The position numbers were made by a program, and so were the translations under genes. The notes below the pieces were generated by a model. It was not told the origin of the DNA, searched no databases, and saw nothing but the letters and a program-made list of their open reading frames with translations. A DNA stretch of 42,529 bases from Myxococcaceae bacterium (GTDB lineage Bacteria > Myxococcota > Myxococcia > Myxococcales > Myxococcaceae), in NCBI GenBank assembly GCA_020247085.1, contig JADCJJ010000460.1, positions 1 to 42,529 on the forward strand, in the 5' to 3' direction. Every line of letters starts with the position of its first letter. The stretch's first letter is position 1. This document shows, piece after piece, positions 19,631-27,676 of the stretch.

Positions 19631-20560
19631 ATGGAGTTGTCCGAGACCTTCAGCGCCCTGGGTGACCCGACGCGCCTGCGCATCTTGCGGCTGGTGGCCT
19701 CGGCGAAGCTCAACGTCTCCGAGGTCGTCTCGCTCATCGGCGTCGCCCAGTCGTCGGTGTCGCACCACCTGGCGAAGCTCAAGGCGCTCGAGCTCATCCG
19801 CGAGGAGCGGCAGGGAGGCTTCACGTACTACTCGCTGGCCGTCGACGCGTCCGATGCGCGGTGGCCGCTCATTCGCCTGGCGCGGGAGGGCGACGACACC
19901 CACGGCGACCAGGCGCGCCTCACCGAACTGCTGCGCCGCCGCGAGGACCGGCACACGCTGAACGAGCGGCTGCTCGAGCCCGGCCAGTCGTGGCTCTTGT
20001 GGGCGGCGGCGCTCTCGTCGCTGCTGCCCCGGCTCGACGTGGCCGACTTCGGCTGCGGCTCCGGGGTGCTGACGGCCGAGCTGGCGCGCTGGGCGCGGCA
20101 CGTCACCGCCGTCGACAAGAGCGCAGCGGCGCTGGAGCAGGCGCGGGCCCGCCTCGCGCGCGAGGGCCGGGGCAACGTGTCGTTCGTCGAGGGCGACCTC
20201 GAGGCGCTGCCGCGCGGCGTGCCCCGTCAAGACCTGGTGGTGTTGTCGCAGAGCCTGCACCACGTCGGCGACCCGGCGGCGGTGCTGCGCGAGGCCGCCC
20301 GCGTGCTGGTGCCTGGCGGCCGGCTCGTCGTGCTCGAGCTGATGCCGCACCGCGAGGCCTGGGTGAAGCCGCGCCTGGGCCACCAGCACCTCGGCTTCGA
20401 CCCGCACGGGCTCGAGAGCGCCCTGCGCGACTCGGGCTTCGTCGACCTGCAGCTCACCCCAACGCCGCGAGACGGGGGCTCTCCCTTCCGCGCGTTTCTG
20501 CTCACCGCGTCGCGGCCCGCCCGCGCCGCCCGCCGCGCCGCGCGAGAGGCGCGGGCCTGA
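19631..20560 (+). CDS. ArsR-family regulator fused to a SAM-dependent methyltransferase
   Basis: A 309-residue protein from ATG 19631. Residues 1-~75 are an ArsR-type winged helix: FSALGDPTRLRILRLV, the helix-turn-helix VSEVVSLIGVAQSSVSHHLAKLK, and the wing QGGFTYYSL. No Cys metal site is seen, so it is not a metal sensor. Residues ~115-295 are a class I methyltransferase with motif I VADFGCGSG (137-145), Asp162 in TAVDKSA, EGDLEALP (187-194) and PGGRLVVLELMP. It lies 19 bases before the split methionine synthase genes and clearly shares their operon. The SAM/SAH-binding fold suggests it senses the methyl-cycle state (compare the ArsR-type SAH sensor SahR); catalytic activity remains possible. 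The autoregulatory palindrome supports a regulatory role. Confidence 0.9.
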   Translation: MELSETFSALGDPTRLRILRLVASAKLNVSEVVSLIGVAQSSVSHHLAKLKALELIREERQGGFTYYSLAVDASDARWPLIRLAREGDDTHGDQARLTELLRRREDRHTLNERLLEPGQSWLLWAAALSSLLPRLDVADFGCGSGVLTAELARWARHVTAVDKSAAALEQARARLAREGRGNVSFVEGDLEALPRGVPRQDLVVLSQSLHHVGDPAAVLREAARVLVPGGRLVVLELMPHREAWVKPRLGHQHLGFDPHGLESALRDSGFVDLQLTPTPRDGGSPFRAFLLTASRPARAARRAAREARA

Positions 20561-20579: not shown

Positions 20580-21635
20580 ATGACGTCCCGCAGCCAGCCC
20601 TTCGAGCAGCTCTTCTTCGAGCGCATCGTCATCCTCGACGGGGCGATGGGCTCGATGGTGCAGACCTACAAGCTCGAGGAGCCCGACTTTCGCGGCGAGC
20701 GCTTCAAGGACCACCCGCACGACCTCAAGGGCGACAACGACCTGCTGTGCCTCACCCGGCCCGACGTCATCGAGGCCATTCACCTGCAGTACCTCGACGC
20801 CGGCGCCGACGTCATCGAGACCAACACGTTCAACGCCACCACCATCTCGCAGGCCGACTACAGGCTCGAGCCCATCGTGCGCGAGCTGAACCTGGCGGCC
20901 GTCGCGTGCGCGCAGCGCGCCGTGGCCGCGGCAGAGGCGAAGACGCCGGGCCGCCGCTGCTTCGTGGCCGGCGCCGTGGGCCCGCTCAACCGCACGCTGT
21001 CGCTCTCGCCCGACGTCAACCGCCCCGACTTCCGCGCCGTCACGTGGGACCAGGTGGTGACGGCCTACACCGAGCAGGTGCGCGCCCTGCTCGAAGGCGG
21101 CGTCGACGCGCTGCTGGTCGAGACCATCTTCGACACGCTCAACGCCAAGGCCGCGCTCTTCGCCATCGAGGGCGTCTTCGAAGAGACGGGCCGGCGCGTG
21201 CCGGTCATGGTGTCGGTCACCATCACCGACCGCTCGGGCCGTACGCTGTCGGGGCAGACCATCGCGGCCTTCTACGCCTCGGTGCGCCACGCGCGGCCCT
21301 TCTCGGTGGGCATCAACTGCGCGCTCGGCGGCGCCGAGATGCGGCCCTACGTCGAAGAGCTCGCCGGCCTCGCCGAGTGCCGCATCAGCTGCTACCCGAA
21401 CGCCGGCCTGCCCAACGCCTTCGGCGGCTACGACGAGACGCCCGAGGACATGGCGCGGGTGCTCGGCGACTTCGCGAAGCAGGGCTGGCTGAACCTGGTG
21501 GGCGGGTGCTGCGGCTCGACGCCGGCGCACATCGCCGCCATCGCGCAGGCCGTGAAGGCCCACGCGCCCCACGCCGTCGCGCCGCCGGTGGTGGCGCAGC
21601 CCCTCTCGGGCCTCGAGCCCCTCACCATTCGCTGA
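20580..21635 (+). CDS. metH: Methionine synthase, homocysteine-binding subunit (split MetH, N-terminal domain)
   Basis: A 351-residue protein from ATG 20580, equivalent to the first domain of cobalamin-dependent methionine synthase. It starts with the [10 protein letters not shown] strand. The zinc ligands are at Cys247 (GINCALGG) and Cys310-Cys311 ([11 protein letters not shown]), the same positions as in E. coli MetH (from memory). The protein ends at [11 protein letters not shown], the point where the one-chain enzyme continues into the pterin domain. It binds homocysteine through zinc and needs the partner encoded 13 bases downstream for methyl transfer. Translation follows closely on the ArsR-methyltransferase gene, so all three are probably one mRNA. 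Confidence 0.95.
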
Positions 21636-21648
21636 AGGCCCACGACCC

Positions 21649-24333
<2,685 letters not shown>

Positions 24334-24442
24334 GCCCCACGCGCTCAGCCGCCCCCAGGCCGCGGCGAGCCCTCCGCGCGCCCGGCCGCCGTCACCGACG
24401 CCGCGGCGCCCCACCCGTCACCCCGGAGGCGGGCGCGGCGGG

Positions 24443-24471
24443 TTGCGCTCTGGATATAACGTCGTTATAGA
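24443..24471 (+). promoter_or_regulatory. Promoter with TetR operator upstream of tetR-type gene
   Basis: TTGCGC (24443-24448) and TATAGA (24466-24471) are 17 bases apart. The 15-bp perfect palindrome TATAACGTCGTTATA (24455-24469) covers the spacer and most of the -10. A bound repressor would block RNA polymerase. The predicted transcript start is at or near the GTG at 24478, so a leaderless mRNA is possible. Confidence 0.6.
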
Positions 24472-24477
24472 AGAGGC

Positions 24478-25140
24478 GTGAGTGGGCGCAGAGGTCACAG
24501 CCGGGCGGCGAGCGCGCGGAGGGAGCGGCAGGCGCCCCCTGCGGTGGATCGCCGGCGGCTCCTCGACGTCGCGAGCGGCCTGCTCGCCGAGGGTGGCCCC
24601 GCCGGGCTGACGATGCGCGCGGTGGCGGCGGCGGCCGGCACGTCGACGATGGTGCTGTACAGCCGCTTCGGGGGGCGTGAGGCGCTGGTCGAGGCGCTGC
24701 TGGCCGAAGGCTTCTCCCGCTTCGCGCAGGCGCTGGGGGCCGCGTCGGCGCCAGAGCCAGCCGCGCACCTGCTGGCGCTCGGGCACGCCTACCGGCGTTT
24801 CGCGCTCGACCACCCGACGTACTTCCGCCTCATGTGGAGCGGCGCTCGCGGCAGCCCGCCCCTCGGCGCAGCCCCTTCCGGCGGCGCACAAGAGCACGCG
24901 CAGCAGGCCTTCAGCGCGCTGCTGCACGCGGTCACCCGCGTCCTCGCCGCCGACGACCGCCCCGCCCGCGACGCCGAGCCGCTCGCGCACTGCGCCTGGG
25001 CGGCGGTGCACGGCTTCGTCTCGCTCGAGCTGTCCGGCGTCACCCCCTCCGGTCCGTCGGCCGACGCGCTCTTCGAGCGCACCCTGCGCTTCGCCCTCGA
25101 CGGGCTCCGGTCCCCGCAGCCGGGCCCCACCCGCCGCTGA
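24478..25140 (+). CDS. TetR/AcrR-family transcriptional regulator
   Basis: A 220-residue protein from GTG 24478; an in-frame GTG at 24544 would give 198 residues, a more usual length, so the start is uncertain. The TetR DNA-binding domain (about residues 25-75) has RRLLDVASGLLAEGG, the helix-turn-helix LTMRAVAAAAGTSTMVLYSRFG, and EALVEALLAEG. The C-terminal part has the WAAVHGFVSLEL helix typical of the TetR_C_33 (WHG) group. Palindromes of the same design lie just upstream of this gene and upstream of the next gene, so it very likely represses itself and the membrane/ABA4-like pair that follows 66 bases downstream. The ligand is unknown. Confidence 0.9.
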   Translation: MSGRRGHSRAASARRERQAPPAVDRRRLLDVASGLLAEGGPAGLTMRAVAAAAGTSTMVLYSRFGGREALVEALLAEGFSRFAQALGAASAPEPAAHLLALGHAYRRFALDHPTYFRLMWSGARGSPPLGAAPSGGAQEHAQQAFSALLHAVTRVLAADDRPARDAEPLAHCAWAAVHGFVSLELSGVTPSGPSADALFERTLRFALDGLRSPQPGPTRR

Positions 25141-25182
25141 CCCACGCCTTCACCCCTGCCGCACGCCGCTCCATGCCGACCA

Positions 25183-25197
25183 AATAACATCGTTATT
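25183..25197 (+). promoter_or_regulatory. Second TetR operator, before the membrane-protein gene
   Basis: AATAACATCGTTATT is a palindrome with 6-bp arms around ATC. It shares the core ATAAC-RTC-GTTAT with the operator before tetR. It sits 9 bases ahead of the ATG at 25207, just before the GAGG ribosome site. A TATTGA -10-like box overlaps its right half. Confidence 0.65.
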
Positions 25198-25206
25198 GAG
25201 GACCCC

Positions 25207-26103
25207 ATGAAACGACCCTTGCAGCACACCCTCGCCTCCCTCCTGCGCCTGAATCGCGACGCGTCACCTGCGGTGCGCGCCTTGAAGCTGGCCGGCGCGG
25301 CCTACGTGCTGAGCGGCCTCGCCCATGGGCTGGTCTGGCTCGCCGACGGCGCGCCCTCGCTCGACGGCCCGGTGTCGTGGCGCAAACCCATCGTCTTCGG
25401 GCTGTCGGGCGGTGTGGCGACGCTGTCGCTGGCGTGGCTGGCCTCGTGGGTGTCGGCCGCGACGACGCGCGCGCGCTGGACGTGGGTGTACGTGGTGACG
25501 ATGACGGGCGAGCTGCTGCTCATCGACGGGCAGCGCTGGCGGGGCGTCGCCTCGCACTTCAACCTTTCGACGCCCCTCGACACCGCGGTCTTCGCGGCCA
25601 TGGGGGTGCTCATCTGCGTGGCGATGTTCGCCGCCTGGCGGCTGGGGGTGGCGCTGGCCGCGTCGGTCGACTCGCCGGTCGACGTGCGGGCCGCCGGGGC
25701 GTGGGCCATTCGCTTCCTCATGCTGGGCGCCTTCATCGGGTTGGCGATGGCCGTGTACGGCGTCGTCGCCCAGGCGGCGGGCGGCACGCCGTCGGCGCTG
25801 AGCGGCGCGGGGAGCCTGAAGCTGGTGCACGCGCTGGCGCTCCACGGCCTGCAGGTCTTCCCGGCGCTGCTGCTGCCGCTGTCGGGACTGGGGCTCGACG
25901 CGGCGGGGCGCGCACGCAGGCTCGACCTGGCGGCCCTCGGCTACGCGCTGCTGTTCGTCGCGACGGCGGCGCAGGCGCTGCTCGGCCGGGCACCCGTCGA
26001 CCCGGCGCCGTCATCGGCGCTCATCGCCAGCGCAGGCCTGGCGTGCCTGGCCGCGGCCCTGCGCCCCCATGCGCCGCGCGTCGCCGCCGCGAGGGCGCCG
26101 TGA
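25207..26103 (+). CDS. Conserved-looking multi-span membrane protein of unknown function
   Basis: A 298-residue protein from ATG 25207 with a GAGG ribosome site five bases upstream. Seven to eight membrane spans are predicted. Polar motifs inside or next to spans are striking: GLAHGLVWLADG, SWRKPIVFGLSGG, RWRGVASHFNLSTPLD and HALALHGLQVFPALLLPL, with several His that could be heme, metal or pigment ligands (inference only). No known family was recognised with confidence. Its TGA overlaps the ATG of the ABA4-like gene (TGATG), so the two membrane proteins are co-translated. The upstream operator places it under the TetR-type regulator. Confidence 0.8.
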   Translation: MKRPLQHTLASLLRLNRDASPAVRALKLAGAAYVLSGLAHGLVWLADGAPSLDGPVSWRKPIVFGLSGGVATLSLAWLASWVSAATTRARWTWVYVVTMTGELLLIDGQRWRGVASHFNLSTPLDTAVFAAMGVLICVAMFAAWRLGVALAASVDSPVDVRAAGAWAIRFLMLGAFIGLAMAVYGVVAQAAGGTPSALSGAGSLKLVHALALHGLQVFPALLLPLSGLGLDAAGRARRLDLAALGYALLFVATAAQALLGRAPVDPAPSSALIASAGLACLAAALRPHAPRVAAARAP

Positions 26104-26552
26104 TGGACACGACGTTTCAGCTCGCCAACCTCGTCGTGCTGCCGTTCTGGCTCGCGATGATCGCCGCTCCGGGCCTTCAGGTGACGCAGCGCCTCGTCTC
26201 GTCGCCGTGGGGCGCGGCGCTGCCGGCGGCGGCCTACGCATGGCTGATGCTCCCGCGCGCCCTCGCCGTGCTGCCTCTGGTGGCCCGCCCGGAGCTGGGT
26301 CCCCTCACCGCGCTCCTGGGGACGCCCGAGGGCACCACGCTCTCGTGGCTGCACTTCCTCTCGTTCGACCTCTTCGTCGGCCGGTGGATCTATCTCGAGG
26401 CCCGCGAGAGGGGCGCTCGCGCATGGGTCTCGTCTCCCATCCTGGCGTTGACGCTCCTGCTGGGCCCCGTCGGCCTCATCACCTGGCTGGTGGCGCGCCA
26501 GCGGCTCCCGCCGCGTGGGGCCTCGGCCCCACTCACGCCGAGCGCGACGTGA
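26103..26552 (+). CDS. ABA4-like (DUF4281) membrane protein
   Basis: A 149-residue protein from ATG 26103, overlapping the previous stop codon. Four spans are predicted. Family-type motifs: FQLANLVVLPFWLAMIAAP at the start, LVSSPWGAALPAAAYAWLMLP, LLGTPEGTTLSWLHFLSFDLFVGRW (written in two conserved pieces: LLGTPEG and HFLSFDLFVGRWIY), and LLLGPVGLITWLV at the end. This matches the DUF4281 family named after plant ABA4, needed for neoxanthin formation in plants. In bacteria the role is unknown; a link to carotenoids or another lipid pigment is only a suggestion. No carotenoid gene is in this window. Confidence 0.85.
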   Translation: MDTTFQLANLVVLPFWLAMIAAPGLQVTQRLVSSPWGAALPAAAYAWLMLPRALAVLPLVARPELGPLTALLGTPEGTTLSWLHFLSFDLFVGRWIYLEARERGARAWVSSPILALTLLLGPVGLITWLVARQRLPPRGASAPLTPSAT

Positions 26553-26785
26553 CGCGTCGGGCCGTCGGGGGCCGCGCGCGCTCGCCTGGCCTCGAGCCGA
26601 CGGCCCGCGAGCGTCCCGGCGCTGGGGGCACCGCCCCCCCCAGCGTCGCGCGGGGCCCACGTCTGCTGGGCCCTCGACTGCCTGCGACCGCGGCCTCGGC
26701 GCGACCTCGCGAGGCGAGCCGAAACTTGGGTGGCGCCGCGTGCCGACGGTGCCGATGGACCGAGCCGCGCGCTGGGCCTCGCGCC

Positions 26786-27676
26786 TCAGGCCAGCCCGGC
26801 CAGCACGTCGTGCGCCTCGCGCGCGAGCTGCTCGACGATGGCACCGATGGGCTTCACTTCGTGCACGAGCCCGACGCCCTGGCCCGCGCTCCAGATGTCC
26901 CTCCACCGCCGGGCGCCCTCGGGTGAGCGGTCGGGCGTGAAGTCGGCGGGCACGGTGGCCTTGAGGAAGTTGGCGTGAATGCCCGAGATGGCGTCGGTGT
27001 AGACGACGTCCTCGGGGCCCGACGTCACCACGAGCTGCTTGTAGGCGTCGCTCGCCCCGCACTCGGTCGAGGCGATGAAGCGCGTGCCGAGGTAGCAGAG
27101 CTGCGCGCCCAGGCTGAGCGCCGCCACCACCTGCCGGCCGTCCGAGATGCAGCCCGCGGCGATGATGGGCACCTTCAGCGCCTCGGCCAGCCACGGCACC
27201 AGCACGAAGGGTGAGATGCGCCCCGCGTGACCGCCGGCGCCGGCGGCCACCGCGATGATGGCGTCGACGCCAGCGGCGACCGCCTTCCTGCCGTGGTGCA
27301 GCGAGATGACGTCGTGGAACACCAGCCGCTGCCGCTCGTGTGCGCGGCGCACCACCTCGCTCGGGTTGCCGTAGCTGGTGAGAATCACCGGCACGTCGTA
27401 CTCGAGGCACGCCGAGAGGTCGGCCTCGACGCGCTCCGGCGGGGTGAGCCCGAGGGTGAGGTTGATGCCGATGGGCTTGTCGGTGCGCTGTCGAACCCAC
27501 GCCAGGTCGTCGCGGAACTGCTGCGGCGTGCGCGCGTTGAGCGACGGCATGCACCCGAGAATGCCCGCCTCGGCCGAGGCGAGGAGCATCTCTTTGTTCG
27601 AGATGAGGAACATCGGCGCCGCCACGAAGGGGTAGCGCAGGCCCAACTGCTTCGAGAGGTCCGTCGACAGGCGCAT
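26786..27676 (-). CDS. NAD(P)H-dependent flavin oxidoreductase / nitronate monooxygenase-like enzyme
   Basis: ATG 27676 (MRLSTDLSKQLGLRYPFVAAPM) is chosen; the open frame extends upstream to 27862 with non-protein-like sequence. This gives a 296-residue TIM barrel of the 2-nitropropane dioxygenase family. Landmarks: PFVAAPMFLISN at the start (FMN site), GINLTLG (66-72), the AAGAGGHAGRISPFVLVP segment with the conserved Gly-Gly-His, AAGCISDGRQVVAALSLGA, and LGTRFIASTE phosphate loop. FMN enzymes of this family oxidise nitronates or act as enoyl reductases; the substrate here is unknown. A 233-base gap without features follows on its 3' side, up to the ABA4-like gene. Confidence 0.9.
   Translation of the reverse strand: MRLSTDLSKQLGLRYPFVAAPMFLISNKEMLLASAEAGILGCMPSLNARTPQQFRDDLAWVRQRTDKPIGINLTLGLTPPERVEADLSACLEYDVPVILTSYGNPSEVVRRAHERQRLVFHDVISLHHGRKAVAAGVDAIIAVAAGAGGHAGRISPFVLVPWLAEALKVPIIAAGCISDGRQVVAALSLGAQLCYLGTRFIASTECGASDAYKQLVVTSGPEDVVYTDAISGIHANFLKATVPADFTPDRSPEGARRWRDIWSAGQGVGLVHEVKPIGAIVEQLAREAHDVLAGLA

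Follow-up and report, generated by a model that had tools for sequence, protein, structure and literature searches.

The window, the whole stretch of 42,529 nucleotides of Myxococcaceae DNA that was analysed, carries a cassette in which a gene for a TetR-type repressor is followed by two genes for membrane proteins, with similar palindromes before the repressor gene and before the first membrane gene. The parts of the cassette, in order of position, are:

24443–24471, plus strand: putative tetR promoter, TTGCGC-17-TATAGA; operator 1 spans the spacer and extends into the beginning of the −10 element
24455–24469, no strand assigned: operator 1, TATAACGTCGTTATA, a 15-bp dyad before tetR
24478–25140, plus strand: tetR, 220 aa, GTG start, a repressor with TetR_N and TetR_C_33 domains
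25183–25197, no strand assigned: operator 2, AATAACATCGTTATT, a 15-bp dyad directly upstream of the MEM Shine-Dalgarno sequence
25207–26103, plus strand: the membrane gene here called MEM, 298 aa, eight predicted transmembrane helices, a new family
26101–26105, plus strand: TGATG, the stop/start overlap of the MEM and ABA4-like genes, a one-base overlap read from the sequence
26103–26552, plus strand: the ABA4-like gene (PF14108 / DUF4281), 149 aa, about four transmembrane helices

An earlier, sequence-only reading of this DNA had described a TetR-controlled cassette of two overlapping membrane genes with paired operators. Both palindromes and the TGATG overlap lie where it had placed them, and the cassette itself is confirmed. 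The tetR product matches PF00440 (TetR_N) with an E value of 7e-12 and PF13305 (TetR_C_33) with an E value of 1e-20, which places it in the TetR family. The 149-aa protein passes the curated cut-off of PF14108 (E 9e-36, 123.5 bits against a cut-off of 27), its residues 4–127 aligning with positions 2–126 of the 127 in the profile. A scan of the window against Rfam gave no match. Elsewhere in the window (20580–24333) lies a split MetH, consisting of a homocysteine S-methyltransferase of 351 aa and a pterin-binding, B12-binding and activation protein of 894 aa, with 13 bp between the two. Directly upstream of it, at 19631–20560, an ArsR-type HTH is fused to a SAM-dependent methyltransferase (309 aa), and this protein is a possible regulator of the methionine cycle.

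Operators 1 and 2 have in common the core ATAAC-RTC-GTTAT, as had been noted from the sequence. When the 15-bp motif was searched for across the whole genome (7,356,658 bases), exact matches to ATAACRTCGTTAT were found only at these two sites, 728 bp apart, and nearly all of the remaining matches carried two mismatches. At up to two mismatches the window contains four matches, against 0.04 in shuffles of the window. The promoter of 17-base spacing proposed for tetR stands in part: TTGCGC-17-TATAGA is present, but the two hexamers agree with the consensus at only 3/6 and 4/6 positions (7/12 in total) and a sigma-70 consensus scan of 24300–26800 returned no promoter. In relatives, a canonical TTGACA is found at or near the operator (loci L012, L056, L066, L090, L165, L017, L018 and L020–L022), and from this anatomy a promoter overlapped by the operator is likely in the window also. 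Transcription of tetR is likely to start at or near the start codon, giving a leaderless message, since the start codon comes directly after the operator at several loci in the Myxococcota.

The operators are a recurrent feature of related loci, where their absence had been named as the observation that would speak against the cassette. Sixty related genomes were searched with MEM, 14 of which matched, the window's own genome included, and the flanking regions were read. Paired operators of 15 or 16 bp recur at the loci of relatives in the Myxococcota, Chloroflexota and Deinococcota. When 1,006 kb of loci, with overlapping loci counted twice, were scanned for dyads of two 6-bp arms around a 3–4 bp spacer, 36 matches were obtained, most of them in intergenic promoter regions of tetR or membrane genes. 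Eleven loci with a collinear upstream tetR were picked by gene order rather than by motif; at ten of these, like dyads precede both tetR and the first effector gene, an arrangement reproduced in at most one of 200 dinucleotide shuffles of each locus. The exception is L014, where the pair GTTTACGTATGTAAAC and GTTAACGCGCGTTGAC was seen by eye only.

The sequence of the arms differs between groups of loci. TATAAC arms occur in the window, L009 and L027, and are also listed for genome G007; GTTAAC arms occur in L012 and L014–L016, with sites of this type in Deinococcus as well; CCRAAC arms are found in three Chloroflexota (L056, L066 and L090); and GTTGAC arms in L022, L082, L099 and L100, the site being common to divergent genes in the Acidobacteriota and in L022. 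These groups differ in the recognition helix of TetR too, the operator sequence shifting roughly in step with the helix, as would be expected if the adjacent TetR reads the sites. We infer that the adjacent TetR binds both operators. Conserved paired operators of changing sequence are, moreover, a useful natural data set for the study of TetR recognition. Regulation by a TetR with paired operators is of a known kind. The tetR–tetA and qacR–qacA pairs are TetR–effector cassettes, and they resemble the window in that a locally encoded TetR has similar operators at its own promoter and at that of the effector. The effectors in the window, by contrast, are a new membrane family and an ABA4-like protein, and include no known transporter.

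The larger membrane protein has no counterpart in the family databases. The window's MEM matched nothing in Pfam or NCBIfam, and among the matches listed for 76 members against Pfam no family occurred in more than two of the 76, the best E value being 1e-4 for a single member. No match to PDB sequences was obtained at E values up to 10, no relatives were found in phages, and no homology was detected between MEM and ABA4. Scanning of a genome collection with a 13-row MEM alignment nonetheless returned at least 462 relatives. The 80 loci that were kept come from Myxococcota, Actinomycetota, Chloroflexota, Thermomicrobiota, Bacteroidota, Acidobacteriota, Ignavibacteriota, Chlorobiota, Bacillota and haloarchaea, to which plasmid-borne copies add Deinococcus and Alphaproteobacteria. 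The window's own protein falls in a subclade that has a long branch and a short loop between TM5 and TM6. Both the MEM family and its partnership with ABA4 appear to be undescribed.

Thirteen residues are invariant in 76 aligned MEM sequences: W58, K60, P61, F64, S67, E102, Q109, G113, S116, H117, H208, H213 and Q216. The His-rich polar motifs that had been ascribed to this protein are thus partly borne out, H117, H208 and H213 being the histidines that are invariant. The AlphaFold2 model has eight membrane helices (pLDDT 92, pTM 0.88), and the charges of the inter-helix loops fit a topology with the N-terminus inside and the invariant residues near the outer face. The model suggests that these residues lie mostly near one face of the membrane, at or near helix ends; the order of the helices places them on one side, and the loop charges point to this side being extracytoplasmic. 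The MEM membrane family, widespread but lacking a model in Pfam or NCBIfam, offers a clear set of residues for mutation.

The ABA4-like protein is modelled by AlphaFold2 with about four helices (pLDDT 93) and has the conserved residues W82, H84, D89, G93, P122 and G124. Comparison of its fold with the PDB gave nothing useful, and a search for literature on prokaryotic ABA4-like proteins or DUF4281 found nothing relevant. In plants ABA4 is required for the formation of neoxanthin, although it is not established exactly what ABA4 and NXD1 do (PMC8770946). According to that paper, and to PMC10004953 together with reference 36 of the latter, the ABA4-like family includes proteins of plants and algae with links to neoxanthin or fucoxanthin. 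Arabidopsis ABA4, which is needed for neoxanthin, and the 149-aa protein belong to the same family, PF14108. The window's protein differs in being prokaryotic and encoded in a repressor-controlled operon, and in having in MEM a partner that is not named in the plant literature consulted. In large myxobacterial genomes (G033 and G012, at loci L123 and L124) a further ABA4-like gene lies away from MEM, and no common neighbours are evident.

The sequence-only reading held that the two proteins form one membrane system, and conceded that rare adjacency in other genomes would count against this. In each of the 20 further surveyed genomes that hold both genes, as in the window's own, an ABA4-like gene adjoins a MEM gene. 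Among 146 Myxococcota genomes, MEM occurs in 11, an ABA4-like gene in 11 and both in nine, the window's own included; the two are adjacent in all nine, and their co-occurrence has a Fisher p of 5e-11. Three of 198 Actinomycetota genomes, one of them the centre of the survey, hold both, again adjacent in each (3/3), while co-occurrence in this phylum taken alone is not significant (p 0.05). The genomes reached through individual loci tell the same story, with adjacency in nine of the nine that hold both. Six of these were entered via a MEM gene with no ABA4 beside it, and in all six the ABA4-like gene was found elsewhere, adjoining a second MEM paralogue; the other three, entered via a MEM with ABA4 beside it, agree. 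Within the 80 kept loci, 32 have an ABA4-like gene on the same strand and within 300 bp of MEM, in either order. The Myxococcota and Actinomycetota surveys, being unselected, are stronger evidence than this last count. In six actinobacterial genomes (G165, G166, G168, G170, G171 and G182) there are three MEM paralogues apiece, and just one of the three lies beside an ABA4-like gene.

Gene fusions lend further support to a two-protein system. In the myxobacterium G029, known from one draft assembly, ABA4 and MEM are fused in a single open frame with tetR and paired operators upstream, and in the haloarchaeon Halorientalis marina a MEM–ABA4 fusion of 429 aa (WP_246989230.1) is annotated as ABA4-like. 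The domain orders of the two fusions are opposite, and the topology implied for ABA4 is not simple. In the Halorientalis protein (L164:4863–6152) the ABA4 part begins right after MEM helix 7, and the weakly conserved last helix of MEM appears to have been replaced. The pair is not obligatory, since many MEM genes have no ABA4 partner and some genomes have ABA4 and no MEM. On a quick tree the state of having ABA4 beside MEM changes about 15 times, at least eight of these changes being forced by well-supported branches. The MEM–ABA4 partnership is an old one that recurs repeatedly, and losses are common.

Apart from ABA4, the recurrent neighbours of MEM are for the most part local regulators, and these belong to unrelated families. 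Besides TetR at loci such as the window's, Actinomycetota and Chloroflexota have a NarL-type kinase and response regulator, several Actinomycetota have MerR, Pedobacter and Mucilaginibacter have cNMP-binding regulators, some Bacteroidota have a LytS-like kinase, haloarchaea have HTH_10 proteins and one Streptomyces plasmid has MarR. The orientation of tetR also varies, being collinear with the effectors in the window and divergent in some relatives. No recurrent biosynthetic pathway was seen among the non-regulator genes of these neighbourhoods, for which genes were called approximately with a simple script. That a single effector pair is placed under so many sensors agrees better with a self-contained response module than with one step of a fixed pathway.

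The operators and their conservation, the linkage, the fusions, the predicted topology and the conserved residues are the observations on which a mechanism can be framed, and comparison between genomes leaves both the putative regulation and the MEM–ABA4 partnership well supported. We consider it probable that TetR represses an operon whose two membrane proteins form a complex, that this complex modifies or moves a lipophilic substrate, and that the same substrate, or damage to the membrane, induces the operon. TetR would bind the two like 15-bp operators, at its own promoter and before mem–aba4, and so repress both; a small hydrophobic ligand or a product of membrane damage would release it. 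MEM and the ABA4-like protein would thereupon join in the cytoplasmic membrane, forming a complex of two subunits with about 12 helices in all. In the model, K60, E102, Q109, R112, H117, D125, H208, H213 and Q216 lie near the predicted extracytoplasmic face and are the most likely active or binding site, at which a lipophilic substrate would be modified or moved. The descriptions 'ligand-induced' and 'acting on a lipid', already offered in the sequence-only reading, are inferences from the type of regulator. A bolder and more tentative extension is that MEM is the ancient prokaryotic partner of ABA4-like proteins, that the two together constitute a new class of integral-membrane enzyme, and that plant ABA4 derives from its small subunit. 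Were this so, the bacterial pair could open a way into the unexplained chemistry of neoxanthin formation. If prokaryotic ABA4-like proteins do work with a partner, then the bacterial or archaeal pair and the two fusions would provide simple biochemical test systems.

An alternative is that the two proteins counter a lipophilic toxicant, as a system of efflux or permeability whose substrate TetR senses, in the manner of tetR–tetA or qacR–qacA. Operators of the autoregulatory TetR type at both promoters, the swapping of local regulators between lineages and the combined total of about 12 helices would all suit such a system, as would the xenobiotic-type neighbours seen at two loci (DoxX, carboxymuconolactone decarboxylase, FMN reductase and an MFS transporter). 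The MEM model, however, finds its best PDB matches among oxidases rather than transporters, and the E, D, K, R and three His conserved near one face resemble a reaction site more closely. Efflux seems an unlikely role.

A role in pigment metabolism, in which the pair would modify a carotenoid or isoprenoid with MEM as the catalytic partner and TetR sensing the pigment or a precursor, is decidedly doubtful. It draws on the neoxanthin and fucoxanthin links of plant and algal ABA4-like proteins, and CrtI-family proteins do exceed the cut-off in 12 of 13 carriers of MEM or ABA4, but this figure covers carriers only and so the presence of CrtI is no test. No carotenoid gene recurs beside the pair, and G029, in which the pair is fused, has no CrtI-family match above the cut-off. 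The earlier suggestion of a pigment substrate finds no support in this evidence, the idea deriving from the plant name only.

That MEM is a reduced relative of haem-copper oxidase subunit I, binding haem or metal in a redox complex, is highly improbable: the leading PDB matches of the model are mostly haem-copper oxidases (bo3, COX1, NOR and ba3; probability mostly between 0.85 and 1, TM up to 0.60 over the query) and three histidines are invariant, but the best Foldseek E value is 0.036, no PDB sequence matches, and the MEM–COX1 profile–profile score of 22 is reached by about nine of 100 block-shuffled COX1 profiles. The haem and CuB histidine set of COX1 includes an HxH pair in helix X. The invariant histidines of MEM are limited to H117, H208 and H213, the last two of which lie five residues apart, and the HxH and other COX1 ligand histidines have no invariant counterpart; nor was PF00115 (COX1) among the Pfam families listed for MEM. 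MEM and ABA4 together have about 12 helices, and the likeness to COX1 is a weak one of fold, without significant profile similarity or the haem and copper ligand set. Kinship is not claimed, the profile comparison being no better than shuffled controls.

MEM genes without ABA4 include one on a plasmid of Streptomyces sp. NBC_00826 (L166), which lies between an NRPS gene and an Ebo-type cluster encoding EboA, a prenyltransferase and inositol-3-phosphate synthase, and which has relatives on many Streptomyces plasmids.
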